A DNA stretch of 64,000 nt from the NCBI GenBank assembly GCA_019448385.1, contig JAGTXO010000020.1, positions 434,001 through 498,000 of the forward strand. Direction: 5' to 3'. Below, in pieces: positions 9,130-34,192 of this stretch; the first letter of the stretch is position 1; each line of letters starts with the position of its first letter. The notes under the pieces were generated by a model that saw only the letters and a list, made by a program, of their open reading frames with translations, was not told the origin of the DNA and searched no databases. The DNA is from Diacronema lutheri. Taxonomy: Eukaryota; Haptophyta; Pavlovophyceae; Pavlovales; Pavlovaceae. The translations under genes and the position numbers were made by a program.

Positions 9130-9222
9130 GTGACCGGGATGCGCGGGGATCGACGACATTGGTGGCTACTCGATTCCCCCGCAGCTGGTGCTGACCCCGC
9201 TGTCCTGACGTAAGCGCCGTTA
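9130..9222 (-). repeat. Repeat segment B1, inverted copy of 14435-14527
   Basis: About 93 bp that match, in reverse complement, the segment beginning TAACGGCGCTTACGTCAGGA and ending near CGCGCATCCCGGTCAC at 14.44-14.53 kb, with only one or two differences. It abuts the large inverted repeat that starts at 9223. Confidence 0.7.
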
Positions 9223-9527: not shown

Positions 9528-9658
9528 AAGCCCTCCCCAAATTTGGGCCCGACGTCATTCCTTCTTTCGTCAAAGCGTCATTCCTTCTACCCCTATGGGA
9601 CTTTCATAACCGTACTTATCCTACACCCTACACTATGCAAATACCTAGAGAATAGATA
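9528..9658 (+). repeat. TGTAGGG-repeat family, copy C (left half, split by LINE)
   Basis: Continues outward from the 107-bp arm with GGGCCCGACGTCATTCCTTC, a second CGTCATTCCTTCT, and CTATGCAAATACCTAGAG, then stops at AATAGATA (9651-9658). In copy A the next bases are CATCCTACACTAAG. Here those bases resume only at 14413. Confidence 0.7.
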
Positions 9659-9849
9659 GCAACGACGCTTACAGGCGGGTCAGCAGGAGGGGCGCGCACG
9701 GGGCCGAGGCTGGACAAACGGAGCGAGCGAAAGGGCGCACGCAACATCAGGCCGAAATCAGGGCGTCGACCCTGTGCACGCCGGCAGCGGGAACGGCCGG
9801 GACGGCAAGGACGTGGCAGGACGCGTCATGGGCGGACACCCACACACGC

Positions 9850-14332: not shown

Positions 14333-14412
14333 GCCCGCGGGGCCGCGCTACGATCGCGCGGGCCGGGCGTGCAGGGAGGCCGTCGCCATTCAAATCTTAA
14401 CTAGTCTTCTAA

Positions 14413-14675
14413 CATCCTACACTAAGTAAAAGTACTAACGGCGCTTACGTCAGGACAGCGGGGTCAGCACCAGCTGCGGGGGAATCGAGTAGCCACCAAT
14501 GTCGTCGATTCCCGCGCATCCCGGTCACTCACCAGTAAAAGTACTCGTATGTGAGTAACGTCACGGCTTCGAAGAAGGAATGACGTCGGGCCCAAATGTG
14601 GGGAGGGCTTGTTTTGCATCCTACACCCTACACCCTACACCCTTTTAGAAAGCGGCGGCGCCTCAGAGCATGGCG
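14413..14675 (+). repeat. TGTAGGG-repeat family, copies C (right half) and D
   Basis: Begins CATCCTACACTAAGTAAAAG, the continuation of the site split by the LINE. It then carries the B1-related segment, GTGAGTAACGTCACGGCTTC, GGGCCCAAATGTGGGGAGGG, three CCCTACA units, and ends in the CTTTTAGAAAGCGGCGGCGC block shared with the 107-bp arms. Confidence 0.7.
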
Positions 14676-14756
14676 CCCGCCCGCTCGAGCCGGACCTCCG
14701 CGCAGCCGGACTCGCCCCGCCCCGGGCTGCTCTGGCTGGGCGACGTCGTGCGCGCC

Positions 14757-15041
14757 TCAGAACGCCGCGCTCGCCACGCGCACGTAGCCCTCGTCCGGGT
14801 CCGGCTCGGGCGCCGCGTCGCGCACCGAGCGCGACGCGGCCTCGACGCTTCGCGTTTCGGCACGCGAGGCGACGGATGCCTCGTCCGGCCGGCCCCACGG
14901 CAGCTGCAGCTCGAGCTGGCGCTGGATGATGCGCGGCGTCGCCACGCGCCCGTGCTGCACCTCGCGACGTCGCGCGCGCACGTAGAGCACGATCGCCACC
15001 GAGCCGCTGAGGCCCATCATCGCGCCGAGCAGCACCGACAT
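14757..15041 (-). CDS. Small single-pass membrane protein (94 aa)
   Basis: ATG at 15041, stop at 14757-14759. Residues 3-20 form one hydrophobic span (VLLGAMMGLSGSVAIVLY) followed by a basic stop-transfer VRARRR. A soluble tail of about 65 residues is rich in Glu, Ser and Arg and ends PDEGYVRVASAAF. The layout implies an N-out, C-in membrane anchor. It is divergent from the helicase region that starts at 15232, and a run of eleven T lies between them near 15.17-15.18 kb. No family is recognised. It may be element-borne cargo. Its composition and clean frame make it more believable than surrounding frames. Confidence 0.5.
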   Translation of the reverse strand: MSVLLGAMMGLSGSVAIVLYVRARRREVQHGRVATPRIIQRQLELQLPWGRPDEASVASRAETRSVEAASRSVRDAAPEPDPDEGYVRVASAAF

Positions 15042-15231
15042 TGTGGTCTCCTTGTCTGCTTGGGCGCGAACGGAAAACGCGCGAAGGGTGGCGACGAAGA
15101 TCGTTGGGTTGGGTTGGCCACCGGCTCCCGAGGGTTGCTTGTGGCGCTCGACTGACCGTTGGCCCAGCTTTTTTTTTTTCTCGAGCCCACTGTGGAGCCG
15201 CCTGCAGCGTGATCTCCCGCGCAAAACGACC

Positions 15232-17620
15232 ATGGCCGCCATCGACCTGCGCGCCTTCGACGCGGCGCTCGTCAACTGCGAGATCGTGAGCACCCGGCCG
15301 GTCAAGCCGAGCGAGCAGGCGCGCACGGTCGACAAGCTGAGCTACGGGCCGTCGCGCCGCGCGCTCGCCTTCGTCACGCCGCCCTGCGTCGTCGACTGGC
15401 CCAAGCTCACGGGCGACGGCAACTTTGGCACCATGTACGGGCCGACGGACGTCGACAAGGCGGCGTACACGGCCGGCGTGACCGAAAAGGAGCTGCCGAT
15501 TGAAGGCGCGCCGCTCGCGCAGATGGACGCCCACTTTGGCGCCCTGCGCGCCATCGACGATCAGCGCGTCGAGACGGTGCACGCGCGCCAGAAGGCGCTG
15601 CTCAACACGCGCGGCCTCTCGAAGGAGGAGGTGCGCGGCAAGCCCTCGCCCACCGTCAAGCCCAAATATCAAGGACGGCACGCTCGCGCACACGCGGCTG
15701 AACATGTCGACGCGCACGTTCACGTGGGCGGGCTCCGAGCGCGTCGTGCCGCTCGTCGACGCGCGGCGCAAACCGGTCGACGAGATCCGGCACGAGGACG
15801 TCTGCGCCATCGCCACGCAGCTCGACTGCATCTACACGGGGCTCACGGGCTCGATGTTTGGCACCAAGTGGAACGTGTGCGGGGTCATGCTCCTGAAGCG
15901 CGCCGAGCAGCGGCCGCAGCCCGGCTCGGACGCCTTCGCCTCGTACGGCGTGCCCGCCTGGGCCGACACGTTCGACTCCACGGGGCTGTACGTGCCCGAC
16001 GAGCGCGAGCGCGCGGCGGCGCTCGCGGCGGTGGCCGGTCTGCACACGGCGCGCGCGCCGGCCGGGCCGGGCGGGCGCGAGCTCGCGCGCGCGCAGGGCT
16101 ACGATCGCGCCGAGCGGGCTGCGAGCGCGGCGGCGGCGCGCGCGGCGATGGCCGAGGGCGGCCAGCAGCGCGCGCTCCACGGCGCGGTCGTCGAATCGGC
16201 GCTGCGCGGCGTGGGCGACCGGCTGTATCTTTGCGACGCGCCGGGCGGCACGGGCAAGACGTTCGTCGAGCGCGCCATCATCGCCGCCGTGCGCGCGGAT
16301 GGGCACGCGGTCGTCGTGGGCGCGTCCTCGGGCGTCGCCGCCACGCTGCTCCCCGACGGCCGCACCTTCCACTCGACCTTCAAGGTGCCCGTCGGCGCCG
16401 ACTCGGACGGGCAAGCCCTTTTATGTCGTGCCGCGCTCCGAGCGCGGGCGCTCCGTGGCCGCCGCGGCGGCTGGTCGTGTGGGACGAGGCGCCGATGCAG
16501 ACGCGGTGCCACCTCGACTCGCCTGATCGGTGTTGGCGCGACGTGACGGGCGTCGACGAGCGCTTCGGCGGCGAGACGTTGCTGCTCGCCGGCGACTTTC
16601 GCCAGTTCTTGCCGGTGGTGCGGCGCGGCTCGCGCGCGCAGATCGTGCGCTCCTGCCTCAAGTACTCGGCGCCGTGGCAGCACGATCGGCAGCACGCCTT
16701 GGTCGAGAACTTTCGCGCCTCGAGCGCGGCGCGCGACACGGGCGACGCGCTCGGCGCGGGCGAGTGGGCGAAGCTGCTGCGCAGCCCCGGCGACGGCGCC
16801 TTTCCCGCGGCGGTGCCGGCTGCCGGGGCCATGCCCGGCGCATTCCCGCTCGATCCCGTGCAGCTGCCCGAGGCCGTCGGCGGCGTCCCCATCCGCGTGG
16901 GCTCGGCCTACCCGACGGAGCTCGTGACGACTTTGTCCACGGCGCGGCGTGTTGGACCGACGACGGCTCGCTGTGCGACCGCGCGGTGCTCTGCGCCAAG
17001 CAGACGGACGTGGTGCGGATCAACGAGCTGGTGATCGGCCGCTTCCCGGGCGCGGCGGCGAGGTGCGCGTCGGCGGACGAGCTGGCGCGACGACGTGGCG
17101 GGCGGGCAGATTGCGCTGGCGTCGGTCGAGTTTTCTAACTCGCTCGAGCACGCGCAGATGCCGCATTACGTCCTCGACCTGAAGCCCGGGATGGTGGTGA
17201 TGCTACTGCGCAACCTCTCGCCCGGCGAGGGGCTGTGCAGCGACACGCGGCCGATCGTGCGCGGCGTGCGCGCCGGCGGCCGGCTGCTCGAGTACGCACG
17301 CCCCGGCGCGGCCGCCGGGCGCGACAGCACCGTGCTCATCGCGCGTGTCGACCACCACTCGCCCGACGACGGCACGTTCGCGCTTGTGCGGATGCGCCGC
17401 CAGTTCCCCGGTGCGGCCGGCGTAACGAGGCGCAGGGGCAAGCGCTCGGGTGCGCGGGCGTGTGGCTCGCCGAGCCGTGCTTCACGCACGGCCAGCTCCA
17501 CGTGGCCGCTTCGCGCGTCGGGCACACGTCGCGCGTCCGCTTTGCGCTCGGCCCGGACCTCGTGACGCGCAGCGTCGTCTTCAAAGAGGTGCTCCGCGCG
17601 GTCAGCGGTGGCGAGGCGGC
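15232..17620 (+). pseudogene. PIF1-type helicase region of a mobile element, broken
   Basis: Begins MAAIDLRAFDAALVNCEIV. An unrecognised ~250-residue part precedes the helicase; its place suits a DNA-binding partner, but that is inference. Helicase landmarks follow in order: Walker A DAPGGTGKTF (about 16.24 kb), Walker B VVWDEAPMQ (about 16.48 kb), LLAGDFRQFLPVV (about 16.59 kb), a conserved NFRAS, and near 17.43 kb NEAQGQALGC with FTHGQLHVAASRVG. The WDEAPMQ and AGDFRQ-LPV forms are those of helicases in Helitrons and other large elements. The landmarks are spread over several frames, with about half a dozen breaks, so the copy is an old, non-functional remnant. No Rep or capsid domain was seen beside it. 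Confidence 0.7.
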
Positions 17621-19346
17621 GGCGGCGGCGCTCGCCGCGGCCCCCGTCGCCGCCGCGCGCGAATGCGCGGCGGCGGCGCGCGGTGGCGGCGGGCGCGGAC
17701 GGCGCGCGCGGCGCCGGCGGCGAGCGGCGCGCTGGCGGCGGGCGCGCCGCCGGCGCGCGGTGCTGGCCAGCACCCGCCGGCGCGACGCCCGCCGCGCGCT
17801 CGCGCCGACGCGCAGCCGGCGGGTGCTCGCCAGCACCGCGCGCCGCGCGACCGGCCCGCGTACCTGCGCGCCCTTCGAGGGCGCGCAGGGCGGCGCCAAT
17901 GCGGCCGGCGCGCAGGGGCCTCAAGCCGGCGCGCTGCCCGCCGCCGCGTGGGTCGCCGCCGCGCGCGTGCCGTCGGCGCTGCCGCCGTCCGGCGTCGCGC
18001 TCGCGCCGCTGCCGCAACCGCAGCCGCCGCCGCCGCCGCCGCCTGCCGGCAAGCTGGGCAAGCGCGCAGCGGCGGCGACGGCGGTGCGCGGCCCGGCGAG
18101 CAAGCGGCGCGCCGCCGAGCCGGGGGCGGGCTCCGTGGGCGACGAGGCTCGCCCGCCACTCGCACCACTCGCGCGCCAAGCGCGCACAACGCCCCCCCCC
18201 CCCCCCCCCCCCGATGAATTTAATGCTCATACCATGGCGTCGCGCCACGGCAGTACGCCCGTGGCCCCGGCGGCCAGCCTCGCGCCGCTACGCCGTGTCG
18301 TCGCGGCCGGCGCACACAGCGAACTGTGTGTCCGCGGCACATGCCCGGCTGCTCGCGCGCTGCAAGCTTGCCGAACTGCTCGCGCTGGAATGGCGCGTTG
18401 CGGGCGTGCCCGCGCACCGCGCGTGTGCCATGCGCGTTCCGGGAGCGCCGCGCCGCGCGCCGAAGCGGCGCGCGGCGGACGTGCGGCCTCGAGCCGAAGA
18501 GGGGCCGGCGCGACCGGCCGCGAGGCGGGCGCAGACGCTCGGCGTGCCGTTCGATGCGTCGTCCAAATCCGCGTCGGGCGGGTGCGCGCCTGGGCCGGCG
18601 CTGCGTGCAGTCGGCGGGGCCCGGCCACGCGCTCGGGCGTAACGTTCGCGCCTGTTCGGCCGAGGCGCACTCGCCGTCCCCTCGCGCCGGCAACGTGCGT
18701 GCGGGCCAGCACGCAGGCAGCGTACGATGCCACGGCAGCGGCGAGCGCGTCCCCGCCGGTGTGCCGCTCGGCGCCCCGTCACGCGCAACGTGCGCGCCGC
18801 CCGCTGCATGCGCACGCATACGCGCGCTGGCAGCGTGCGCACAATTGCCCGGGCAAGATCGTCCCGCGCTCGCGCCGCCGACGCATCATTCCATGTGTCC
18901 GTTTCGGCATCTGCCACCATCCACCAGCCCTCGAAAGCCGGCTTGCGCGTGGGCGCCCGTCCGGTGCGAGAAGCGGCTCGCGTCCTCGCGCGGGGCGCCT
19001 CCGCGCCAGACGCCCGGCGCGCGCTCGTCTTGCCGCGCCACCACGCTGATCTGCGCCCAACCCTCGCTCGCCAATTCCCCCGTCGTCCCTTCTGCGTAGC
19101 CCGCAACAGCGCGCGCATGGCGCGTGCACGGCGCAGCGCCTTGAGCAAGTTTTACGTCGTCGGTCGGCAGCCTGTGGAAGACGCGTTTGACGGCCCGATG
19201 TGGCCGGTGAGAGTGCCCGGCGTGCCGCGTGGTGAGCGCCTGCACGGCTTGCCGGGCTCGGCGCGCGCCCAGCCAAGCCTCCCTCCATCCCGCCGCAAAC
19301 CGTGCGTGCGCACCCCGCACACCCGGCGCTGCGCGGCGCGGCGCAG
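17621..19346. other. Low-complexity stretch without a convincing gene
   Basis: Dominated by GCC/GCG and arginine/alanine shadow frames on both strands, with an 18-nt C run near 18.19-18.21 kb. A short plus-strand segment near 19.14-19.21 kb (SKFYVVGRQPVEDAFDG) reads like protein and is followed by GTGAGA, so it may be an upstream exon of the USP gene, but the phase could not be matched. Confidence 0.4.
17752..17844. repeat. 30-bp inverted repeat, 29/30 match
   Basis: GGTGCTGGCCAGCACCCGCC near 17758 pairs with GGCGGGTGCTCGCCAGCACC near 17817. The full arms are 17752-17781 and 17815-17844, with a 33-bp loop and one mismatch. Function unknown. Confidence 0.6.
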
Positions 19347-20513
19347 GCGCGAAGAACGAGGGCAACGCGTGCTACACGACCGTCCTTATGCAATCGCTCT
19401 TCGCCCTGAACGTGCTCCGTGCGATGCTTCGCTCCGCTTCGCGCCGTGCCAACAGCGTCGAGAGGGCGCGTTTTCGGGACTTTGGCACGCTGATCGAGGA
19501 CACCAAGGCGCCGACACGGCTGTGTCTTGTGTCCGTCATCGACGTCATCTCGGGCCGTGGCGCGCGAAGGACGCCGCAGGATGCCGCTGAGTTCTTCCGG
19601 TTGCTGCTCGGCCGAGTGCCCGGGCTCGCTGCGGCGTTCGAAGCCGACACACGCGTCGGGCCAGTGCTCGAGCAGATCGCCGTGCCTTCAGAGTCCGGCG
19701 AGGGCATCGCCGTACTCGTCAGCGTCGGCGGCGATGCGGCGCGCGCGCTTGCACACGCTCTGGGGGGCGCCGCTGGGCCGCCGCGGGATGGCCACACGAA
19801 CGCGTGCCACTCGGGCGTGCTCACGCCAGCCAGCATTGCTGTCGAGGCGCCGCGCACGACGCGCGGCAATGGCCCGCAGTGCAAGAAAAACCGCGCGCTC
19901 GTGTGCGCGCCGCGGCTGCTACTCGGCGGGCGCGACCACCTCCTCGTCGCCGGCGTGGTGCACGTGGGCGAGGGGCCGATGAGCGGGCACCTTGTCGCCA
20001 TCGTGCTCCGCAACGAGGCTTGGCTTCCGTGCGACGACTACAACGTGCGGCGGCGCGCACGGTCGCTCGGTGCCGCGACCGGCGGTCGAGCGCAGCCGCA
20101 ACCGCCCCGTCCTCCCGCGCGGCACGCGCGCGTGGCCTGAAAGCTCGCGCGCGCGCCTGCCGCACGCACGCGCGTTGCCCGCGCAGATCTACAACGTGCC
20201 AGAGTCCGACGCGCTGGCGTGGGCAAGTGGTGCGAGCATGCTCTTTTACAGCCGGCTCGACGTGGAGCCGTTGGACCCGGCGCTGGGCTTAGCGTCACCG
20301 CCGTCGGCCGCATCGTCTGCGTGGCCGAGCTCGGAGCCCGACGCGCCGACCTTGCCGGCAGCCTGGCCGCGGGTGCGGCAGATGGCAGCGGTGCCAACAG
20401 ATGCGACGATCGGCATCGCGGAGACGGCTGCAGACATCTCTACGGCGGCGATCGGCCCAGCTGCGCGCGAGGCCCGCCAAGTTGTCTCCGTGACGCGCGC
20501 ATTGCCAACAGCG
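19347..20513 (+). CDS. USP-type ubiquitin carboxyl-terminal hydrolase, partial
   Basis: Two exons are supported, 19347-20044 and 20187-20513, joined in phase by a GTGCGG...GCAG intron. The Cys box GAKNEGNACYTTVLMQSLFA corresponds to the usual GL-N-GNTCYMN--LQ-L. RTPQDAAEFFRLLLGR matches the QQDA-EF--LLD box. The His box VVHVGEGPMSGHLVAIVLR plus EAWLPCDDYN gives the H and D positions, and ASMLFYSR is the usual ending. Cys, His and Asp are all present, so an active deubiquitinase is possible. The 5' end is not resolved (an acceptor AG precedes 19347). A strong donor GTGAGT at 20514 implies at least one more exon. It sits in the mobile block and may be cargo. Confidence 0.65.
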
Positions 20514-20547
20514 GTGAGTGCGTCCTCGTCTCCGGCGGCCGCTGTGC

Positions 20548-20554
20548 CCTCCCC

Positions 20555-20585
<31 letters not shown>

Positions 20586-20592
20586 ACACACC
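20548..20592. repeat. Poly-C followed by (CA)n microsatellite
   Basis: A run of more than twenty C ends in about ten CA units, directly after the GTGAGT donor. It probably lies in an intron of the USP gene. Confidence 0.7.
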
Positions 20593-20829
20593 ACTCTCCC
20601 TACCTCCTTCCTCCTTTCGCACCTCGCACGCGCACGCCGTCCGCTGTCCGCTGTCCGCGGCCCAAGTTGCCTTGCGGAAGCCGAGCAGGCAGAGCCCTGC
20701 TTGGATGGCTCCAGCGCGCATCTTGTGGATGGCGACGCTGTGGGCGAGCACGGACGCTTAAATGTGACCAGTGGCGTGCACGTGCACGTGCGCTGGCTGG
20801 ACGTCGAGCGTGTGCGCCTTGTCCGCACG

Positions 20830-23130
20830 TGTGCACTCACGTGCGTCTGCGGCGATCTGCCCGGCGCGGTAGTCCGCGCGCGAGAGAGCCGCGTCGGCAG
20901 TAGGAGGAGGACATCGTACTTGCGCCTGACGAGAACGGCGAGAAGTGCGGCTTTTCGCTCGGGGCCTACCATGCCGCTGAGGTTGGCGCTGGCGAGCGTG
21001 AGGCAGTCGGAGCGCGCTGGGCCCGGGTTGGAGGCCTCACCCCGGGGGACGGGAGGATTCAAGGCGCCGAGCCGCTGCGGGTGCGGCGGGAGGCCCCGGG
21101 CGGGTGTGCTAATGCGGCTCGATGGCCGCATGCCGGGGGGGGGGGGGGGGGGGGGGGGGGGGCGTTGGGCCGCCCGCGGAAACTGAGGTGAGCGTGTGGG
21201 AGCGGCGCGCGTCGGCGCGCGCGGCTGGCGTGCAGCACGGATGGGTCTTATGTGGACTTCGCGGGGCGGATCCCGGTGCAGGGATTGCCGACGTAGGCCG
21301 CGAGCGCGAGCAGGGCGGGGATGAAGACGGATGATGGGGTTGGGGCCAAGGCCGCCGCACCCGCAGCTATCACGGTGGCAGCGACCGCCACGGTCAGTGC
21401 GAGGCTCGCGTGGCCCGCTGCCCGCCAGGTCCAGGAGGGCCGGCCTGCGGCCTCAGTGCCCAGCGTTGGGCATGTCAGCGTCTGCGTCTGCGGGCCCGCC
21501 ACTGCGATGGCGCTTTGAGCCCGGCGCACCAAAACGCAATCGGTCCGCCGATCGGGGGTGCGAGGCGTGCGCGGGGGCTTGGGGTGGGCTCCGGGTGCCG
21601 GCGCTGTGCCAGCGGCGGGCTTGGTTGACGCCGTCTTGCCGGGGCCCTTGCGCCTTGCGGCGCGAGCGTCGCGGAGGGGCGTCGGCTGCGCTGGCTCCGC
21701 GTCGGCGGTGGCGTGGGGCAGGCTCTTGTGGAGGGCGGAGCGCTCGCGCACGAGTCGGTTGCCAAGGCGGGCTGTCTGCGTGCCGTTGGGCTGCGCTTGG
21801 GCAGGTAGGACCTGCGGCCTCGAGGGCGTGCGGGTTTTCGTGTTGGGCCAGGCGGCAGCGCGCACCGGCCGTGTTCGCGGCCGGCAGGCGGACGTCCGCA
21901 GCGGGGCGGAGAATGCGGGTGAAGCGCCTGCATGGGCGCGGTTCGCACCTGGCGGCCAGGCGATCACGAACCGTTGGGTCGCCCGGCTGTTCGGTGGAGC
22001 TGAGGGCAGCAAGGATAGCGAGCGTGGCCGCCTCATCGGTGACGAGCGGCACTGTTGCCCAGCTCTGTACCTCGAAGCCCTGGATGTGCAGGCGTCGGGG
22101 AAGTTCCCGGCAGCGTCGCCTGCGTCCGTCGAGAGGCGGACCGAACTCGCGCCCGTGCCCCCGTTGGCGACACCGAGCTCTCGCTCGTTCACACCGGCCC
22201 GCCGACGCGGGCGCGTGATGCGCGCGCGTTGGGTGCGTGTCTGCCTCGAGCAGCGTGCCCAGTCGCAGTTCGGGCGCGTGTCCGTCTGCCTCAAAACGCC
22301 ACGTGGAGGGGAAGGCGCGGGGCGGGCTCGCCGAGGAGGTGCCGCCGCTCGCTGCCACCCGGCGCGGGCTCGGTGCAGACGTCTTCGGATGCCGCGCTCT
22401 TCGCGCCATGCACGAACGTTCCGCCGCGCTCGCAGCGCGCGAGCGCACACACAGAGCGCGCGGCGACCCCGGCGGGGGCAGTGCGTCCCGGTGGCACTCG
22501 CGGGCGCGCGCCTGGCCTGGGCGCAGCTGGGCGCGTTGCCGCCCGCGCAGCGAGCCGCCCGCGCGCCTCGCCGCGCGCGCGCTTCGTCGCACGCGTGCGC
22601 CCTGCATGCACGCGCACAGCGCGCGGCGGCTCGGCGCAGTGCAAGGCAGAGCGTGCTGCAACGGTTGCGAGGGCGCGCACGCGCGGCGCGGCGCGCCCCT
22701 GTGTGGTCGCCTGCGCGCGGCGCGTGGTCCGGACGCAGCTGGCTGGCGTGATGCCGTTCGTGCAACACAGTGCGCGTGAGAGCCGCACGTGCACACCCGC
22801 AGTGCAACGCGGCATTGCGCGCGTTGCGTGGGCGGAGCGCGGCTGGATGTGCTTGAGGTCGCGCGGCGTGCCGCGCGCCGCGCGCTGTGCGGCGCAGCGA
22901 GTCGGCCATGCCCCTGGTCCTCATCTCCGGGGGAGCCGGGGGGGGGGGGGGGGGTGGTGGCAACCAGGATCCGCCAGCGCGTGGTGGGCGCCGTCCAACT
23001 CCCAACCAGGATGCGCCCCGTTCTTCCCCGACGCTCTCCGTCCAAACCCGCCGCCCAGCCTGCCGCCGCACCCGCCGCCAACGCCGCCGCGCACCCATCC
23101 GCCGAGCTCACCGCGCGCGCGCTCGCGCTC
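20830..23130 (-). mobile_element. Second LINE, 5' fragment (ORF1-like and start of APE endonuclease)
   Basis: Reading leftward: sequence resembling ORF1 of algal non-LTR elements, with LHIQGFEVQSWATVPL and DPTVRDRLAARCEP near 22.0 kb, then two hydrophobic spans near 21.3-21.4 kb. After a poly-G/poly-C tract (about 21135-21163) comes RGEASNPGP (21.01-21.04 kb), a 2A-like ending. The opening of an exonuclease-endonuclease-phosphatase fold follows: LTLASANLSGMVG and KYDVLLLLPTRLS. The rest of the endonuclease and all of the reverse transcriptase are absent. The frames are not continuous, so this is a 5' fragment of a dead copy. The remaining antisense frames are shadows. Confidence 0.5.
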
Positions 23131-23471
23131 ACGCTGCGCGACGAGGCTGCGCAGGCCGGCGCGCGGCCGTGCAGAGCAGCGCAGGCCGGCGCGCGGCCGC
23201 GCGCGCGCGCTCACGTTGCGGCCGCGCAGCGAGCTTTCGCCGCGTCGCAGCCCTTCCGAGCAGCCACGATGCACGCCCCCGGAGGACGTTGGCCGCGCTC
23301 GGAGGCCGCGCTCGGGCGCGCAAAGAGAGGCGGCGCGGGCAAACGAGTAGGCTCGGCGCGCTGGCGGGTCCTGGTTGTGGGAGAGCGGGGCATTCTCCAG
23401 GGCATCATGTAAATTCTCCCCAAGTATCATCCGGGCTGCCATCCGGACACTGACGTGTCCACAGTCTGCAG
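23131..23471. other. Spacer before the Ulp1/Fanzor gene
   Basis: No convincing gene. Two direct copies of GCGCAGGCCGGCGCGCGGCC occur near 23.15-23.21 kb. The last bases, CTGCAG before 23472, could be a splice acceptor, so an upstream exon of the next gene may exist. Confidence 0.4.
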
Positions 23472-24660
23472 GTTGAGGACTCCGTGAAGGACGCTTTGCG
23501 CGGCGGGCTGGGCAGCTCGGACAGTTTCTCGCTGGCCCTCAGCACCACCGTGGCGAACAGTGTGCGCCACCCCCACGTGGTCCCACCCGAGTGCGTCCTC
23601 GCCCTGCTGCATGGCGAGAGTCTCGGCCCGAGCGTGGTCAAGGTGGAGTTCAAGGCGTGCTCGAAGCATGCGCTCAAGGTGGCGCTGCGCAACCTGGGCA
23701 AAGCATGCGCGGATGCGGACCGGCTTGGGCAGGTGCTCGTGGTCGTGCTACCGCTCTGCCTCCGCGCGTCCAGCGGCCTCGATCACTGGACGGCGGCGTA
23801 CCTGCTCCTCGCGCCGCCCGCGCAGCGCGGCGCGCCGCCCGGCGCCGCGCTCGCCCTGCACGCCGATTCGCTCAGCTTGGGCAATGGCGAGTCGGCGCAC
23901 GCCACGGCGGCCGGCAAGCTCATCACGACGCTCGCCCAGCGCATCGGCATCCCAGCGCCGCCCATCGATGCCTTGAAGGCGCCCGCGCAGAGTGGGAACG
24001 AGTGTTGCTTCGCCGCGGCAACACTCGCGGCCGAGGTCGGGGCGAGCGCAGCGCCGACGGCGGGCCGCCGCGCGAATGTCCTTGTCGGGATCAAGAAGGC
24101 TTTGAACGCGCGCCTCACGCGACTCACGACGGCCGCGTACGAGGAGACCCGCAAGCGCACGCTCCACGCCGCCGTCGGCGCTCTGCTCGACGACGGCGCC
24201 AGGCGCTGCGGCGCGTTCACCGACGAGGCCGCGCGGCTCGCCGAGGCCGCGCGGCTCGCCGAGGCGTGCGGTGCCAGTATCGGCGGATCCGCGCCCGACG
24301 GGCTGCTGCAGGCCGTCGAGGCGGCGCTGCGCGCGCCCGACGACCGCATCGCACGCACGGCCGCGCTCGACGCGCTCACGGGCGCTGCAGGCCGCGCGCT
24401 GTCGACGGCGGCCAGGCCGCGCGGCGCGGCGGCGCCAAGGCCGCCGTCGCGAGCGCCACCGCCGCGTGCGCCGCAGCGGCGCGCCGCCTCGGCGTGGGGG
24501 CACCGACCATTCAGCAGCCTCGGCGTGGGCGAGGGCGACGGGGGCGATGGCGACGCCACCACCGCTGACGACGGGGAGGACGCGGAGGACGGGGACGACG
24601 ACCTCTCCAACGACGATGCGGGTCACGACACCGACGACGACTCCGCCGACGGCGGCGACG
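23472..24660 (+). CDS. Ulp1 (C48)-like cysteine peptidase module
   Basis: Open frame entered at an acceptor-like CTGCAG and without a good ATG. The core has the order expected for SUMO-type C48 peptidases: a His in GLDHWTAAYLLLAP, an Asp in ALHADSLSLGN, then a Gln and Cys in APAQSGNECCFAAATLA. A helical region follows, then an acidic Asp/Gly tract. Known family role: removal of SUMO or related modifiers; C48 domains are common cargo of large DNA transposons. The frame meets the downstream 24.7-30.9 kb frame inside a GGC/GAC-rich tract near 24.65 kb. Whether the two are one gene or neighbours is not resolved. Catalytic residues look present, so activity is possible. Confidence 0.55.
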
Positions 24661-24784
24661 CGACGGCGGCGGCGACGGCGACGGCGGCGGAGGCGGCGAC
24701 GGAGGCGACGGCGGCGGCGGCGGCGGCGGCCAAGGCTCGCCATCGGCAGCCCCAGAGGACTTCGCGCTGGCCAGCCCCGAGGCG

Positions 24785-27700
24785 GTGCTCGAGCTGCTCG
24801 CGGCCGCCGCGACTGTGCGCGAGCAGCTGGCGCTCGCCTTTGCGCCGTCCGGCGGCGCGCGCGGCGACGCGCTGGACGCGAAGCGCGCGCCCTTTGAGGT
24901 GCTGCGCTCGCTGCTGGTGCGCGTCGCGCGGCTGTCGGACGTGCGCGCGCGGCTGCGCCTCCGCCAGCTGCTGCTCGCGCTGCGCGATCCGCGTTGCGCT
25001 GCCAAGCGCTCGCGGCGGCGCACGGACGAGCTGCGCGACGCGCGCCGCGTCGCCGAGCGGCTCGTCGCCGAGCTGCACGTGGCCCTGCCCGACTGGCAGC
25101 TCTTCTCCGGCGTCTGCGCCGGCGAAGACGGCTCGGCCGACGCGCCGTTCACGATGCTGCGCGTCGCGCCGCGGCCGGGGCAGCGCGGCGCGCCGGGCGT
25201 GCGCGACGTCGCCCAGCTGCTCGGCGGAGTGCGGCTCTCGAGCGCGCCGCGTGCGCTGCTGGTCGCGATCGACCGCCCGTCGACCGACAGGGAGCCGGTC
25301 GAGCTCGGCGGGCCGGGCGGCGGCGGTGGCGGCGCGCTCGTGCTCGGCACCGTCGGCGGCCCCGACGCGACGTTCGCGCTGGCGAGCGTGCTCGTCCAGC
25401 ACCGCGGCCGCAAGCGCGACGCGTGCGCCGTGCTCGCGCCCGCGCCCGACGGCGGCTGGTGGCGCGTCGACGGCGGCGGCAAGCAGCGAGACAACGCTGG
25501 CAGCGCGGCGGCCGAGGCGCGCGAGCTCGCCGTGGTCGCGCTGTACGAGCGCGTCGAGCCGCACGCGCCGGCGCGCCGAGTGGTCGGCGCGGCCGACGAG
25601 GCGCGCCTGTGCGCCGTCGCGCGCGCGCTCGACGCGCACGGCGAGCAGGTGTGGCGGTGGGCGACGGACACGGCGCCGCCGCTCCGCGACGCGCTCGACG
25701 TGCTGCGCGTCGGGGCGGACGCGCCGTCGGCGTGCGCCGCGCTCGCGGCCGCCGAGCTCGCGCCGCTCTTCGCGCGCGCGCACGTCGACGGCGCGTGGGC
25801 GGCGCGCGACGGCGACGTTGTGCTCGCGGAGGCGCGCAGCGCGGCCGACGCCGACGGCGTCCGCAAACGCACGCGCCGGTCGACGCCGTCACTCCGCCCC
25901 AGGCTCGTCGTCGCGCTGCGCGATGGCACAGGCGGAAGGGTCGTGGCGCTGCTCGTCGTGCTGCCGCCGCGCGCGGCGGGCGCCCCCGCGAGGCCGCTGC
26001 TCGTCGCGCCGCGCGTCGGCGGCAACGACGACTGGCGCATCGCGCGCGCGCACGTCGGCGAGCTGCGCAGCGCGGAGCTGCTCAGCACGGAGCCGACGCA
26101 CGTCGCGATCGGCGGCGTCGCGCGCGCGAAGCCGCACGTCCTTGCGCTCGAGCTCGCGCTGCTCGCGCGTGCGGTCGTGTGCCACGACCTCGGCGACGCG
26201 TGGGCGCGCTGCACGAGCGCAGACGAGATGTGCCGCAGTGCGAACGCGCACATCGCCGGCCTGCCCGACGCGCGCGACGGTGTCGAGCGCGCGGCCGTGG
26301 CCGTTGCGGCGCATCGCTGGCGGTGGGACGTGCCGCTCGCGGCGCCCTCCGCCGCCGCGTCCACGGCCGCGGCGCCAACCCCGCCGGCGGCGCCGGGCGG
26401 CGGTGGCTCGGCGCCGCTCGAACGCGAACGCCGCTGCGTCTACACTGCGCCTGGACAGGGCGACGCGGACGCGCGCGTGTACGACGCCAAGGACCCCGAG
26501 AAGCTAAAAGCGGGCAGGGCGCGGCTTGAGGCGAACAGCGGGCGCGCGCCCGCCGTGGTCGGCACGCTCGACGCGCACGCGACGGGCACGATCGTCACGC
26601 AGCAGCGCCCGGAGGTCATGACCGGCGCGGAGATGCACCGCCTCGCCGCCCTGACGCAGGGCGCGGGGTACGGTAACGTCGTGCTGGCCAAGCTGGGCGA
26701 GCCCGGCTTCGCGGGGACGACATGGCACATGACGTCGGGCGTGGAGAACCAGTTGCACGCGGTACGAGCGGCCGCGCGCGCGTACGCGCTCGACGGCTGG
26801 GGCGGCGTGTACGATGCGGACGAGGACTTTGCCGTCTTCGAGGGCTTGCCGCGGCTCGCCGCGCCCGAACCGCTCGCGGCCATCGCCGGCGGGTCGGCGG
26901 ACGCGGTGTTCTGCTGGCGGTCCGGCCGGTCCGTCATCGGCGAGGTGAAGACGGTTCACTTCGATGGCGACCGCGCCGCTGCCATCGTCCACGCGCGGGC
27001 GCTGCGCGTCAAGCCCGATTGGCGCTCGCAGCCCAGGATCTACGAGGCGGCGTGCGGCGCGGAGGGCACGGTGCTGCTCGTGTGGGTCGTGCCCGACCGT
27101 CACAAGAACCCGCGGCTGGACTGGGCGCCGATTCTCGTCGTGATCCACCTGCCCGCCGACCCCGACTGGCTCGCGCGCGCCACGCCGGCGATCGAGGAGG
27201 CGTGGCGCGAGGTCGAGGACGGACGCGCGCTCGCGGAGGCGCGCGGCGTGCCGCAGCACCTCGCCTACACGCTAAGCCCACGCTTCCGAGGCACCGCGCC
27301 GCGCGGCGCCGCGCGCGTGCCGCCGCGCCTCGGCGCGAGCGACGCGCGCGAGGCGCGCGCGCTCGCGGCGCTCGTGTCGGCGCTCATGTTCGTGCCGGCC
27401 TGGCGGCGCGCGGTGCGCGCGGCGAGCCGCGCCCCCGACAGTGGCGCCGCGGCCGTCGCGCGCGCGCTCGCGCGTCTGCACAACGCGCTCGAGCCCGATG
27501 ACGAGAGCGCGCCCGAGTCGGCGCGCGTCGCGCCGCTCGCCGCCGCGCTCGAGCAGTCGGCGGGCTGGCCGGCGGGCACGGCGCGCGGCTTGTCGGCCGA
27601 CGGCGCGCTGCGCGCGCTGCTCGACGTGCTGCGCGCGTGCGGCGCGAGCGACGAGCTCGAGCGCGCGCTGCGCGGCGGCGAGCCGCCGGCGCCGGGCGCG

Positions 27701-30700
27701 CCCTCGGCGCGCGGCGCGTCGGCCGCGTGGCCGCTCGTCGCGCTGCGCGCCGCCGACGCGCGCGGCGCGAGCGCCAGCGCCGCCGTGTCGCGCGCGCTCG
27801 GCGCGCACGGGGTGCGCAACCCGCCGCGGCTCGTCGTCGTGCACGTCGCGGACGCGACCGAGTCGCTGCTCGAGATGCCCGAGCGGCTCGCGCTGCGCGT
27901 CGCGCGCGGCGCCGAGCCGGCCGAGCCGACCGCGGACGGGGCCGACGCCGACGCCGACGCCGAGCCCGCCGCCGTGCTCAGGCTGGTCGCCGTCGTGCTG
28001 CGCGACGCGTGCGACGACAAGGAGCGGCTCGTCGCCTGCGCTGCCCTCGCGCCCGGCGATCGCGACTGGATGCGCGTTGCCGCCGCGAGCCGGCGCGCGT
28101 GCACCGCGAGGGTCGCGCTCGAGGGCCGCGCGCTGCTGCTCGTGTACGCGGCCGAGCCGGACGGCGCGCGCGCGCGCGGCGGCGGCGCGAGCGCGCGCGC
28201 GGCGGGCGCGCCGGCCGGCGCGCCCGGCGCGCCGAGCGCGGAGCCGGCCGGCGAGTCGCGCGGCCGCCGCGTCGCGCCGCACCTGCCGCCGCTGCCGCGC
28301 AAGCGCAAGCGCGATGCCGAGGCGCGCGCGCGGCTCGCGGCCGACACCGCGCGCGTCGACGCGGCGGCGCGATTCGGCGGTCCGCCGCTCACGTACACGT
28401 GTGGCGGGCGGCCGCTGTCGACGCACGACGTGCGCGCGCTCCAGGGCAAGTACACCGAGGTGCCTTCGATCGTCGTCGAGGCCGAGCTCGGCGCGATCAA
28501 CCGCGCCGCGGACAAAGCCGGCCGGCCGTGGAGGACGGCCGGTCCGGCCGTCGCGCGCGCGCTGCTCGCCGCCGTCGCCGACGGCGGCGGCGAGCCCAAT
28601 CGCGCGCAGGTCGCGCTGGACGAGCACGGCCTCGGCGAGTGCACGCACCTCGCGCTGCTCTTCGCCAGCACCAATCGGCGGGTCGGCGCGGCCGTCGTGG
28701 TCGTCGTGCGCGACGGCGAGGGCGGCTGGGTGCAGCACTACAACCCGACCGCCGCGCCGGAGCGCGCCACGGGGGCCAAGCCGATCGCCGTGCGCGAGCG
28801 CGCCAAGGAGATCGAGCGCCAGGCGGAGCAGCTCGTCTGCGGGCTCGCGCGCGCGCTCCGCCTGCGCGCGCTTCCGCCCGTCGACGGCGCTGCGCCGGCG
28901 ACCGCGCGGTCGGCGCAGCCGACGGCGCACGGGCGCGCGGTCGGCGGCCGCTGGCGCGTCGAGCGCAAGGCGGATTCGCGCGCCGCCTGCGTCGTGGTCA
29001 TGTCCTGGCTCGCGCTCGGCGCGCGTGACGCCGCCGCCGACGTCGGCGGCGGCGGCGGCGGCGTCGGCGGCGGCGATGGCGGCGGCGACCAGAGCGCGCT
29101 CGCTGCCGCGGCGAGCGTGCTTGCGCTCAACGTGCACGCGACTGCGCAGCTCGCCGAGTACCGCGCGGCGGTGTTTGCGCTCATCCTGCGCGAGACGGCA
29201 GCGCAGCTGCGAGCGCGCGACGCGGCGGTGACGCAGCAGCCGGTCGCGTCCGCGCCGGCGTCGGCGGCGCCGACGCCGGGGGAGGCTCGTGCGCGGTGCC
29301 TGGACGAGCTCAAGGCATCGGGCGGCAAGCATGCGGTCGTGACGCCCGTCGCCATTGACGGCGTGCTCGCCCAGGTGCGCGACCCGGCGCGCGGGTTCCG
29401 CGCCTTCTTCGGCCCGGGCGAGACGCGCGCGCTGCTCGACGCGCGCGACGCACGGCACGAGGCCGCGCAAGAGCGGCTGCGCGAGCGTCTCGACGGTACC
29501 GACTGCGACGCGCTGCTGCTCGTCCACTCGCCGAGCGACGGCGCCGACCCGCAGCTCCTCCTCCTGCTCGCCGCCGACGAGCACGGCGCAGGTCCGAGCG
29601 GCCGCTGGCGCCGGTTCCTCCTGCTCGAGCGCGCGCCGCGCGATGGCGCGGCGGGCGCGGCGGCGACAAGCTGGGCGGGCGGGCTCGTCGCGCGTTTGTT
29701 CGGCGGCGACGCGACGCTCGAGCAGCTGCGCCGGTCGGAGCGCTCGCGTGCGTACGTGCCGCCCGCCGGCCGCGCGGGCGTGTGGGCGCTCGCGCTCGCG
29801 CTGTGCGTGCTGCGCGTGGAGCGCGGCGGCCTGCTGGGCAACGCCGGGCGCGTGTGGCCGCGCGAGCGCGACGCGCAGGCGGCCGGCTGGCTGCTCGAGG
29901 CGTGGCTGCGCGCGGAGGCCAAGCGCGAGGCCGCTCTCCGCAAGCCGCCGGTGAGCACCGCGCCGGCGTCCGGGCGCGGCGCGGCGGCGGCGCGGCCGCG
30001 CGCGGGCGGCGCGGTCGGCGGGGGCGTGCTCGCGTGCGGCGAGTGCGCGGAGCCGGCCGCGACGCCGCGCCGCGCCGCGCGGACGGCCGCGCCGGCGGCC
30101 GGCGCGGCCAACGCGTCCGCCTGCGCGTGCTGCGCGAGCGCCGAGCCGCCGGCCGAGCCGCCGGACGCGACGGGCGAGCGCATCGCTTGCCTGCAGAAGC
30201 CGAAGGGCTGGCGCACGGAGTACCGGACCCTGGAGCTCAGCGACGGCGCCTTTCGCGGGCGGGCAAAGTACGGCGTCAAGCTGATGCACGTCGTGGACGA
30301 GGCGAACGCCAGCACGCGCATGACGTACAACGTGCTCAACGACCGCGCGCACACATCGCTGCCGAACGCCGGGCAGTGCTCGCCCGGCGACGAGCTGCAG
30401 CGCCCAGACGACGAGCTGAAGGGCTACCCCAAGGGCGAGGACGACGTGGAGAACCTGATCCGCCAGATCGAGCTGCCGCCCGACCAGAAGGGCGGCCATC
30501 CGCTCGGCGAGGCCAACGCGGCGCAGCGGGCGCGCAACCAGCGGCACATTGACCGGCTGTCGCAGGGCGACGCGCCGACGGCGCGCTCGCACCCTTCGCT
30601 AAAAGGCTGCGTCGATACCGAGGCGGAGAAGATCTTCACCGCGTACAAGATGCACCCGCGCCGCGTCGCGTACAAGCTGCTGCGCAAGCTGCTGCGCGCG

Positions 30701-31192
30701 GCGATCGACGCGGGCGAGGCCGCCAAGCCGCGCGGGGCGCGCACGTCGAATGAGCAGCGCGACGCGGACGTCGCGACGCTGCTCAAGCTGCTGTGGTCCG
30801 GCGACACGGCCGGCGCGGCGCCGCGGCTGCCGCCCGCGCTCGCGCAGCACGCCGACTGGCTCGTGCTCCCATGCGACTACAGCACGGATGACCCCAAGGT
30901 CAGGCACACGACCAACTACTTCCTGACGGTGCGCGCGCGCGCGCGCGCGCGCGCGCCGCGCGGCGCGCGCGGGGACGGAGGGGGCTACGCACGGGCCGGC
31001 CGCGCGACGGTGGCCGCGCCGTCCGCGCGGCGCGCGCGCGTGCCGCGGCGCGCCCCGCGCGCGCGCGCTCCGCGGCGCGGCGCCGCGGCCGGGCATGGAC
31101 GGGCGCGCGCCGCGCGGACGACTTGCCGCGCGCGCGCGCAGCAGGGCCACGGCGCGCGGAGCGCTCGACGGCGCTGATGGCGTGCTCCCCGA

Positions 31193-31224
<32 letters not shown>

Positions 31225-33205
31225 CCCCTTCCTTCCCTTGCGTGCGCCGCGCAGCCGGATAAGGCGGCGATGGGCGCGTCGCTGCTCGCGCGCCTCGCGA
31301 TGCTCTACACGCACGTCACCGGCGAGCCGCCGCCGTACGCGCTCTGCCCCCGGCGCGGGAGCATGCAGAAGCGCTTTGTCGACCTGTCCGCGCAGGACCT
31401 GTACCTCCTGCTCGACGAGGACGACACGGCCTTCGTCCGCGAGTGGGTGCGCGAGCTGCCGACGGCCGACGGCGTGCCGCACGGCGACCCGCACAGCGCG
31501 ACCAGCGACCCGCGCGTCAGGGACATGATCTTCTCCCACTTCGTCAGCCTCGACGAGCGGGCGATGCGGTGGACAGGCCAGCAGCTGCCCGGCAGCGACG
31601 TGACGGCGGAGCAGCGGCCCACGTATGTCGGCACCGCCGTCCCGCCCGCGACCGCGTCCGCCGGACCGCAGCCGGCGGTGTACATGCGCCACAACGGCCA
31701 CGCCTGGCAGGTGGTCGTGCCGGTGCTCAAGCCGCCGCAGCCCGGCGGCAGCAAGTCCTTCCTCGACGATTGGCGCGATCCCAACGGCACGTTCGACGAG
31801 GCGACGCCCGAGCAGCTGGCCGAGGCGATCGAGGTGCACGGCCTCAAGACGGCCACGGTGGACCCCGGCTCCGACGGCTTCGTGACGTACGCGCCGAACG
31901 GACACGGGCTCGAGCCCACCTCGGTTCGCCTCACGCAGCGCGAGCGCGCCGCGCGCGCGGGGCACGCGCGCGAGCGCAGCAAGCTCGAGGGCGCGAGGCA
32001 ACGGCCGCTCGTCGAGCCGGGCGCGCGCGCCGGCCCGTCGGGGCCGGGCGGCGCGCGGCCGCGCGCGCCGCGTGCTCCGCCGACGGCGGCCGCGCTCGAG
32101 GCGGAGCTCGGCGCGGCGCACGGCGGGCGCACCGCGCTCGGCGCGAACGACCAGGCCGCCTACGCGCGCGCGCACGAGCGCGTGCGACGGGCTACGCTGC
32201 CCGTGTACGGCGCGCGCGCGCGGCTGCGCGCGCGCAAGCGGCGCGGCGGCGCGAGCCGGCGCGAGTGCGCGCGCGCGGCGGCGCGGATCGTGCGCGCGCA
32301 CGCGACCGACCGAGGGCTGCGGCCAGACCAGCTGCTCGTGCTCTTCGGCGATTGGCTCCACCGGTCGCGCGGCGGCGGCTGCGTGCGCGGCAAGGCGCCG
32401 GCGCTCGGCGTCAGCCTGCTGTGCGCGCTGCGCCGGCGCGGCGTCGCGGCGACGCTCGTGCCCGAGCCGCTCAGCTCCAAGTGCTGCTCGCAGCTGCGCG
32501 AGGTGCGGGGCGCGCCCGCTGCGAGCGCGGCGCCGGCCGCCAACGCCGGCGCAGGCGCTCCCGCCGACGACGGCGCGCCGACGACGGCGGACGAGGCGGC
32601 GGGGCAGCCGCCGCCGCTGCAGCGATGCGGAGGCACGCTGCACCCGTACGCGCGCAGCTCGCCGAGCGGCCGCGGCGCGTGGCGGGCGACGCGGTGCGAC
32701 GCGTGCGGCATCATCTACCACCGCGACTGGACGGCGGCGCGCTGCATCTACCACGATGTGCTCGACATGGTCGCCGACCACCTCGGCAGGCATGAGCGCA
32801 TCACGTCCGAGCCCGGCCGCTTCAAGCGCGTCAAGGCCTTTTGGCAGCGCGCCCTCGGTCGCGAGAGAGAGCACGACAAGGGCGAGCTGCAGGTGGACGA
32901 AGACGAGGCGGGCGGCGGCGGCGGCGGCGGCGGCGGCGGTTCCAGCGGCGGCGTTGGCGGCGGCGGTGCCGGCAGCCGCGGCGGCGGTGCCGGCGGCGGC
33001 GGTGCCGGCAGCCGCGGCGGCGGCGGCGGCGCCGGTGGCGGCGGCGGTGCCGGCAGCCGCGGCGGCGCCGGCGGCGGCGCCGGCGGCGCCGGCGGCGGCG
33101 GACGCGGCAGCGGACGCAGCGGCGGCCGCGGCCGCGGCCGCGGCCGCGGCCGCGGCGGCAGCGCTGGTGCTGCCGGCGCCGCCGAAGGTGCCGCAGCCGC
33201 CGCCG

Positions 33206-33236
<31 letters not shown>

Positions 33237-33642
33237 TGCCGCTGCCGGCGCCGGCACGACCGGCGGCAACGCGCGAGGTTCGCTCGCGTCCGCACGCGAC
33301 GCGGCGCCGGAGGCGAAGCGCCAGCGTCGCGTCAGCACGGCAGCCGCGAACGGCGCAGCCCCTCGCCGGTCGGCGGCGACCTTGCGGCGGGGCGGCTCGG
33401 CCAGCCCGAGCACGCGCGCCTCGCCCCCGGGCCCGAAGCGGGCACGGGCGAGCCGCAGTGGCGCACAGGACGCGGCCGCCGCCGTGCGCGCGCGCGCGCA
33501 CGCGGCGCCGCGCGTGGCGGCGCCGCGCGGCGGCGCAGCCGGTGGCGCGACGAAGCGCGCCTGCCACACCCTGCTGAGAACAACGCTTCATGGCGATCTT
33601 CAGCCTCAGCACGAGCCGCTTGCGGCTTCGCACGCCCCGTAA
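24785..33642 (+). CDS. Giant Fanzor (eukaryotic TnpB-like) nuclease with USP/Ulp1-like modules
   Basis: Two exons, 24785-30928 and 31255-33642, joined in phase by a 326-bp GTGCGC...GCAG intron with a poly-C tract; about 2,840 residues. The start is uncertain because the frame is open farther upstream (PEDFALASPEAV) and no ATG was seen. Modules: USP-like pieces (about residues 140-480); a possible PD-(D/E)XK piece (AVFCWRSG...IGEVKTV, about 710-730); a USP-like module without Cys/His (840-1130); a Ulp1-like module (1195-1470). The Fanzor part starts near 1,800: a -PRRGSMQKRFVDLSAQDLY- segment, RuvC-I TVDPGSDGFVTYA (Asp 2251), LLVLFGDWLHRSRGG, RuvC-II VPEPLSSKCC (Glu 2452), and Zn-ribbon RCDACG running into RuvC-III YHRDWTAA (Asp 2539). 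A Gly/Ala tail holds KRQRR and PKRARA, probably nuclear localisation signals. Expected role: RNA-guided DNA cleavage. Confidence 0.72.
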
Positions 33643-33648
33643 GGGTCG

Positions 33649-34192
33649 TATATACCGTGCAACGGCACGAGGGAAACGAGCGGCCGCCGGCGAGGTCGGT
33701 GGGCGGGCCGCCGGGCGCGTCGAGGAGGGAGACGAGCGCTGCGACCATGCCCGGCGAGCAGAAGCCGCACTGCGAGCCGTCGTGCTCGGCGAGCGCGGAC
33801 TGGAACGCGTGCGGGCGCGCGCTGTCGCCGATCCCCTCGACCGTCGTCACGTCGCACCCGTCGCACGCGACGAGCAGGCGGAGGCACGCATTGGCGGGCA
33901 TGGCGGCCGACTCGCCGGGCAGCCTGAGAAGTACCGTGCACGCGCCGCACCCACCCTCGCGGCACGAGAGCTTGGTGCCCGTCAGCTGCTCGTGCTCGCG
34001 CAAGTAGTCGCCGAGCGTCATCGCGCCGCACAGCCGCGCGGGGAGCGCGCGGGCGGTGCCGTTGACGCGGAGCGAGACAGTGGCAAGTGGCAACGGCAGC
34101 GGCGCGTACGGCGGCGGCGCGCCGCCCGCCTCCGCCTCCGCCTCCGCCTCCGCGCCGTCCCGACAGATCCAGCGCCGCACGGGCGCCAGCAT
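33649..34192 (-). pseudogene. XDH: Xanthine dehydrogenase, N-terminal [2Fe-2S] fragment
   Basis: ATG at 34192 (MLAPVRRWICRDG). The frame shows both iron-sulfur domains of the XDH/aldehyde oxidase family: VSLRVNGTARALP, TGTKLSCREGGCGACTVLL with the plant-ferredoxin type cysteines, DVTTVEGIGD, then SQCGFCSPGMVAALVSLL and the fourth-cysteine motif CRCTVY (normally CRCTGY). Homology ends exactly at that motif, at TATATAC (33649-33655). The rest of the gene, apart from the last ~110 residues at 6.33-6.68 kb, is missing. As it stands the product could bind two [2Fe-2S] clusters but would lack FAD and molybdenum domains, so it is called a broken gene. It is divergent from LETM1. Confidence 0.82.

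Follow-up and report, generated by a model that had tools for sequence, protein, structure and literature searches.

The stretch of DNA analysed here (the window) comprises 64,000 nucleotides of the haptophyte Diacronema lutheri (contig JAGTXO010000020.1, 434,001-498,000), and all positions below are those of the window. Positions 30180-33642 encode a Fanzor-type RuvC nuclease. An initial annotation had recognised this gene from the motifs TVDPG, VPEPLSSKCC, CDAC and YHRDWTAA, all of which are present at the coordinates it gave. What that reading overlooked is that the nuclease ends a mobile element of about 27 kb, in which the stop codon of the Fanzor frame (33640-33642) lies 13 bp before the right end.

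The catalytic core lies in the second exon (31255..32907, on the plus strand, as are all features below unless stated). This exon core contains the RuvC domain and zinc ribbon, was placed by an alignment of eight sequences and is 1653 bp long in nine of ten copies. Family alignments assign the RuvC-I aspartate to the DPG motif (TVDPG, 31861..31863), the RuvC-II glutamate to the alternative, Fanzor position (VPEPLSSKCC, 32464..32466) and the RuvC-III aspartate to the RD motif (YHRDWTAA, 32725..32727), with spacings of 201 residues from D to E and 87 from E to D. Nine residues (D203, E404, C411, C481, C484, R490, D491, A495 and R496) are invariant in the window and seven relatives at 63 to 27% identity, and the D, E and D of the window align with those of L002, a canonical Fanzor from the same genome. 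In a second alignment (n = 11) the three acids are kept in 11, 10 and 10 sequences, the exception (C53) being frameshifted before the glutamate. The claim of a Fanzor-type RuvC with all three acids in the Fanzor arrangement is supported, the acids being kept in eight of eight sequences, canonical Fanzor included. The first zinc cysteine (codon at 32485) follows the glutamate by seven positions. The zinc ribbon is canonical in one of its halves only, in agreement with the initial annotation: the second pair is a CxxC (CDAC) and the first is C-x46-C instead of C-x2-C. Excerpts of PMC10711439 give as Fanzor signatures the DPG motif and a glutamate six residues ahead of the zinc motif; the window Fanzor has both, its alternative glutamate standing six residues before the first zinc cysteine. 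To the signature D-X(125,275)-[TS][TS]-X-X-[C4 zinc finger]-X(5,50)-RD, given in excerpts of PMC3627910, it conforms in the aspartate, the spacing, SS-x-x-C, CxxC and RD, and deviates in the first cysteine pair.

Genome searches scored the best 150 of 503 Fanzor candidates, 132 of 206 candidates for the exonuclease-like domain described below and 150 of 414 PIF1 candidates, and the counts are lower bounds. The Fanzor matches listed include 22 full-query matches at 86-100% identity (the family of the window), six at 53-54%, three at 41-42%, three at 36-38% and 106 at 29-31%, the rest being partial or lone. The 29-31% matches are called the second family here, by identity alone; 105 of them entered the linkage count given below, from which C74:458218 was left out. 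A third, canonical Fanzor family (L002, L052; contigs C1 and C85) has at least 13 matches at 43.9 bits against PF07282, one of which was read as a protein.

PF07282, the TnpB/Cas12f zinc-ribbon family, matches all eight aligned members at E<=1, and its cut-off is exceeded by the second-family homologue L041 (27.3 bits) and by L002 (39.9 bits). A profile built from the eight members found 11 matches in the PDB at E<=10, every one named Cas12, Fanzor, TnpB-like, OrfB/IS605 or (once) only 'Transposase'; the best had E 0.022, and Guillardia theta Fanzor1 had E 0.034. Since nine residues are invariant in 8/8 sequences and PF07282 matches 8/8, the motifs first read by eye go beyond chance. As read from these sequences, the homology is established link by link across the family rather than from the window sequence; a profile search against Fanzor and TnpB families, which the initial annotation had named as a check, succeeds for the family and leaves the window by itself below the cut-off of 26.3 bits. 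Searches of a large protein database with the Fanzor returned D. lutheri gene models only (five proteins; one protein in another search), and NCBIfam gave no match. A single PHROGs match (E 0.027) was set aside as chance level.

That the gene is a contaminant or encodes an unrelated RNase H-like protein is extremely unlikely. The sub-threshold Pfam score of the window would be expected on such a reading. Against it, Fanzor matches occur on many D. lutheri contigs, in keeping with the earlier claim that the gene belongs to the algal genome; guanine-plus-cytosine (GC) content is alike inside and outside the element, and the zinc ribbon and the D-E-D order are common to the window and canonical Fanzor.

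A long open frame (24569..30928, by frame reading) leads into the Fanzor and joins 31255-33642, stop-free, across a 326-bp GT-AG intron (30929..31254; GTGCGC...GCAG, C-rich before the acceptor). The N-terminal part of the Fanzor occupies the end of exon 1 (30600..30928), where alignment with P0001 gives 61% identity over 222 positions across the splice junction; by eye, this part resembles second-family and C82 proteins. Ten copies, the window included, all have the GTGCGC and GCAG boundaries, with intron lengths of 293-326 bp. In all ten the part in exon 1 measures 747 bp, and neither it nor the exon-2 core contains a stop. Relative to the window, indels of many sizes occur in the intron and none in the exons except in copy C1, which has lost one base in the exon-2 core; C1 and C46 also have an early stop in the tail. 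This contrast between sibling indels, together with an FLT/PD junction identical in five of five database gene models (P0001-P0005), bears out the earlier claim of a spliced gene with a 326-bp intron, and the comparison of copies supports the intron at the sequence level. Excerpts of PMC8379373 state that D. lutheri gene models come from a pipeline with RNA-seq evidence. L041, of the second family, lacks an intron at the corresponding position.

A Gly/Ala-rich tail (32908..33642) runs to the stop codon. All 29 pairwise length differences in the tail relative to the window are multiples of three, a regularity partly expected from GGC repeats and drawn from comparisons that are not independent. 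Two basic clusters in the tail, EAKRQRR (33310-33330) and GPKRARA (33430-33450), make predicted nuclear import plausible, and expression of the gene is likewise plausible. Compared with its C36 sibling, the window copy changes frame near 24.5-24.7 kb, where the sequence is rich in GGC, and its upstream part lies in a different frame. Sibling open frames reach about 2900 aa, and because of this frame change the full multidomain protein may not be produced from the window copy, in which the Fanzor part is intact.

At greater distance the Fanzor protein is constrained, judging by where substitutions fall. The window and a relative at about 54% identity differ on 46 of 167 columns conserved in two outgroups and on 120 of 293 others (P 0.0046). 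The same test on another pair gives 43/166 against 123/276 (P 0.0001), and a third yields P 0.0002. No such conserved-column bias is seen in the differences that separate the window from C86 (P 1.0 and 0.61), nor among eight young copies, in which differences fall on 13 of 167 conserved and 26 of 293 other columns (P 0.73). The description of the gene as a 'long-resident copy' is not supported: at least 22 full-query matches stand at 86-100% identity, and these young members carry no sign of constraint.

These patterns bear on whether the protein is only Fanzor-derived and no longer an RNA-guided nuclease, that is, a decayed or repurposed RuvC passenger of a large polyprotein. Such a passenger is favoured by differences that look neutral, both among the young copies and in the comparison of the window with C86, and also by the split zinc ribbon, the upstream frame change in the window copy, the base lost from the core of C1 and the early tail stop of C46. 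The three acids are nevertheless kept across deep divergence, changes relative to the 54% relative avoid conserved columns, and the exon-2 core is full length in all copies examined but one. On balance we consider loss of the nuclease function unlikely.

The element extends from GGCGCGGTCC to ...GGGTCGTATATAC (6685..33655, 26,971 bp including a nested retroelement), as delimited by the copies on C36 and C9 and by five second-family insertions, which refined the left boundary. The C36 copy aligns piecewise with window 6677 to 33655 and diverges at both ends. The right-end string is identical in nine of ten close copies and was not found in C1, whose alignment also reaches 33655. The C9 copy, a member of the second family, shares the left end and left part of the window piecewise at 85-99% identity up to 27586. 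It lacks window 24604-26363 and the nested retroelement, and continues with a right part of its own that contains a YqaJ-like domain (PF09588, 16.3 bits, cut-off 22) and a chromodomain (E 2.7e-12). C9 has lost its right end, and the second-family Fanzor end was read in L041 instead.

The five second-family insertions were picked among those with both ends predictable, and both junctions were read. To the left of GGCGCGGTCC stand TATTAA, TATATAC, TATAGAG, TATATAC and TATATAG, while the right end is GACCATCTATAC in all five, with an element-borne CTATAC, followed by unrelated flanks. TATATAC at 6678..6684, directly 5' of the element in the window, is thus read as a target motif, which varies among these insertions while the element start is constant. 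Three further left junctions (the window and one copy each on C36 and C9) all have TATATAC. Duplication of the target is excluded in three of the five insertions, and the other two share TATAC between target and element end; this check covers the second family, not the window's own. TATATAC had been entertained as a target-site duplication and was dropped after the five junctions were read. TATA words are infrequent in this DNA: on the plus strand of the window they amount to four overlapping matches, equal to the yield of the two TATATAC at the element ends. Of the closely related pair C42 and C36:844048, the first ends in TATATAC and the second in TCTATAC. C86 and C78 have a common left boundary without a TATA motif and the standard right end; C86 had been taken for a randomly 5'-truncated copy, an idea dropped on finding the same boundary in C78. 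An empty-site candidate on C4, one of 40 rows returned by a joined-flank query, crossed the join and did not align as an empty site.

A constant right end with a motif that recurs in the target fits single-strand transposition of the Helitron, IS91 or IS605 type. The insertion geometry read here resembles that type, and a PIF1 helicase would fit it. The element could be an unusual Helitron or other histidine-hydrophobic-histidine (HUH) element whose Rep has diverged beyond recognition or acts in trans, with Fanzor as mere cargo, as in Chlamydomonas Helitron2. This is a possible reading and, in our judgement, a doubtful one. It accounts for the helicase, for insertion 3' of a short motif with a constant right end and no duplication in the three informative insertions, for the different left boundary in C78 and C86 and perhaps for the hairpins near the right end; excerpts of PMC3627910 moreover report Fanzor1 in Helitron2. 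It is opposed by three observations: (i) the genome has a single Helitron_like_N match (contig C63, 35738-36019, 86 bits), and no element match was seen on C63 among the matches listed; (ii) when the window was scanned for HUH motifs, none followed by a Tyr lay in a convincing reading frame; (iii) the element ends, GG...TATAC, appear different from the TC...CTRR of Helitron1. The C63 match may itself be a true Helitron or a transposase acting in trans. Pfam scans of chosen frames gave no resolvase match, and no search aimed at a serine recombinase (Fanzor2/IS607) was made. There is no long inverted repeat between the two ends of the element. Helitron2 is marked by asymmetric terminal inverted repeats, and in the element the palindromes ACGACCC/GGGTCGT lie near the left end and at the right end.

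At the right end itself, 33632-33638 pair with 33643-33649 around a GTAA loop, with one mismatch, ahead of the terminal TATATAC (33632..33655); the stop codon of the window Fanzor sits inside this loop. C36, C78 and C86 have the perfect form, ACGACCC-GTAA-GGGTCGT. Other families have AGGGTTC-GGAA-GAACCCT, AGGACCC-GGAA-GGGCCCT (one mismatch) and two weaker hairpins. A 7-bp stem with at most one mismatch adjoins the right end in three of five families, against 5-10% of background positions. The hairpin is putatively either the 3' end of a guide-RNA scaffold overlapping the gene end or a transposition hairpin; a scaffold that overlaps the end of the gene is described for some Fanzors in excerpts of PMC10432273.

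Upstream of the Fanzor frame the element encodes further proteins. A PIF1-type helicase (16163..17259; PF05970 E 4.5e-23 and 5.2e-18, Pif1 2B domain E 5.4e-12) is spread over several reading frames, reflecting introns or shifts, and is preceded by an unassigned N-terminal part from about 15230. Genome-wide, PIF1 has at least 150 matches, mostly in two score groups at 89.7 and 84.7 bits. A ubiquitin carboxyl-terminal hydrolase-like domain follows at 19211..20137 (PF00443 E 1.6e-10, 41.4 bits, cut-off 23.9). An Ulp1-like H-D-Q-C pattern (HWTAAY...LHADSL...QSGNECC, 23784..24008, in the frame from 23454) was recognised by eye only, and its region has no Pfam match.

Within the long frame, 26480-27373 form an exonuclease-like domain of the PD-(D/E)XK or YqaJ type, marked by an S-x-D...E-V-K motif (26894..26950) that is kept in all three aligned sequences, one of them at 29% identity. 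It aligns weakly and collinearly with the second-family YqaJ-like domain (E 0.96), has no significant match in Pfam or the PDB and finds nothing in a large protein database; a single-sequence structure model has a mean predicted local distance difference test score (pLDDT) of 37. PF09588, of the YqaJ/lambda-exonuclease family, is matched by the second-family domain as given above, whereas the window's domain has the motif only; across the genome, one copy of 150 scored reaches 28.2 bits. At least 132 matches to the exonuclease-like domain occur in the genome. The domain lies 4.5-4.8 kb upstream of Fanzor in 17 of the 22 close copies listed (five are without it at that distance) and 15.5-17.0 kb upstream in 55 of the 105 second-family matches listed (50 without).

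Size, the helicase and protease-like domains could also suggest that the element is a Fanzor-carrying virus of Polinton-like or similar type that has integrated, and excerpts of PMC3627910 place Fanzor in large DNA viruses. Such an origin is very unlikely: the frames scanned with Pfam, a scan that was not exhaustive, gave no capsid or packaging match, neither profile confirmed a relative in a viral contig collection, and the ends lack a long inverted repeat.

The nested reverse-transcriptase element (9659..14533, minus strand; RVT_1 E 0.0012, 19.1 bits, cut-off 29.6) is absent from the C9 copy. It is bordered by short CCCTACA repeats, and related border sequence is found at many places in the genome. 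On the minus strand at 20.8-21.3 kb, the sequence resembles by eye the start of a non-LTR (long terminal repeat) retroelement endonuclease domain. Outside the element, 46-54 kb has a strong GC skew (0.26 to 0.51), and the GC of 46-52 kb (0.67-0.69) is below that of most of the window. The flanks at 6337-6677 and 33.7-34.2 kb (minus) look like the two ends of a xanthine dehydrogenase-like gene, the right with Fer2_2 (E 5.2e-16) and Fer2 (E 3.3e-5) and the left with a weak molybdopterin-domain match (E 0.097). As the large middle of this gene is missing, insertion with deletion, recombination between copies or misassembly would have to be assumed. Contigs C1, C6, C12 and C26 (L042-L045) begin at or just inside the second-family right end, and in C29 and C8 the first 900 bp contain a Fanzor match; these contig starts reflect assembly breaks at repeats or terminal arrays. 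Telomeric starts were considered and rejected: of the four read, three open with the element end itself, the fourth starts a few bases within it, and no telomere-like repeat occurs in the first 400 bases.

Among known systems, IS200/IS605 elements with TnpB have a RuvC nuclease beside the right end, insert 3' of a short target motif and carry end hairpins. The D. lutheri element is alike in these three features and differs in being eukaryotic, larger than 20 kb and without a recognised TnpA-like HUH protein. Fanzor1, for example of Guillardia theta and Spizellomyces punctatus, has the same DPG, glutamate six residues before the zinc cysteine, RD and position as a transposon right-end gene (excerpts of PMC10711439 and PMC10432273). 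In comparison, the window Fanzor has the expanded C-x46-C, shares a giant frame with an exonuclease-like motif and rides on an element of more than 20 kb that also encodes PIF1 helicase and ubiquitin-hydrolase-like domains. Helitron-type elements are already known to carry Fanzor: Chlamydomonas CRe-1/2/3 are Fanzor1-bearing non-autonomous Helitron2 elements, which likewise combine an algal multi-exon Fanzor, insertion 3' of a short motif, full-length copies that show no target duplication, and 5'-shortened copies with intact 3' ends (excerpts of PMC3627910). The D. lutheri element is far larger, has its own PIF1, inserts after TATA-like motifs and has no recognised Rep. A Fanzor in frame with an exonuclease-like domain, on PIF1 elements of more than 20 kb and multicopy in a haptophyte, was not met in the literature searched; the D. 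lutheri genome paper, as far as the excerpts of PMC8379373 go, has 0 occurrences of the stem 'transpos' in its main text.

We propose that the gene probably encodes a Fanzor1-like RNA-guided DNA nuclease, C-terminal in a giant multidomain frame, at the right end of a large D. lutheri DNA transposon. The proposal starts from the homology, the three acids, the intron, the place at the element end, the many copies, the co-encoded PIF1 and ubiquitin-hydrolase-like domains, insertion just 3' of TATA-like motifs and, in the second family, the element-borne CTATAC right end. The element would move as single-stranded or rolling-circle DNA, with a nuclease cutting both donor and target 3' of TATAC. Transcription of the right end would yield a guide-RNA scaffold with flanking host DNA as the guide, and loaded Fanzor would cut the same site where the element is absent. 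Repair from the filled copy would then restore or spread the element, perhaps aided by the exonuclease-like domain and the helicase.

Several results weigh against this proposal. On its own, the window Fanzor scores 18.7 and 19.9 bits against the PF07282 cut-off of 26.3, and as a single query against the PDB it finds two chains, both unrelated. A profile without the canonical member finds nothing significant there (best E 1.2), the top three of its nine matches being unrelated and the other six TnpB/OrfB-type. Single-sequence AlphaFold2 modelling of the RuvC core gives a mean pLDDT of 44.1 and a predicted template modelling score (pTM) of 0.25. NG86 ratios of non-synonymous to synonymous substitution rates (dN/dS), uninformative at about 95% third-position GC, are 0.84-1.22 between divergent pairs, with no clear constraint signal, 0.3-0.7 for four close pairs outside the window's family and mostly above 1 among its siblings. 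Five right ends fold no more than mildly better than shuffled sequence (z -1.2, +0.9, -2.3, -2.8 and -0.2). No transposase was recognised on the element, and a genome search with the joined flanks recovered no empty site. Since the right end carries TATAC beside the guide-matching flank, a nuclease with TATAC as its recognition motif would also cut its own junction unless this is protected.

A bolder and rather improbable version would make Fanzor, the exonuclease-like domain and PIF1 together a self-contained RNA-guided copy-in machine. It would cut a guide-specified site next to a TATA motif and resect it, and recombination-dependent replication would then insert a copy of the whole 20-30 kb element. 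If that were true, the elements would constitute a new eukaryotic class of mobile element, one whose Fanzor helps to drive mobilisation instead of being cargo.

The finding bears on the reason for which Fanzors are retained by eukaryotic transposons. In a single algal genome, several divergent Fanzor families sit directly at the right ends of mobile elements and share a terminal TATAC; the junctions that were read show insertion 3' of a TATA-like motif. With this arrangement, natural insertions would reveal the logic of guide and target motif, and a culturable alga would allow it to be tested. That the Fanzor is linked to an exonuclease-like domain and PIF1 suggests a concrete role for it in repair-driven copying.

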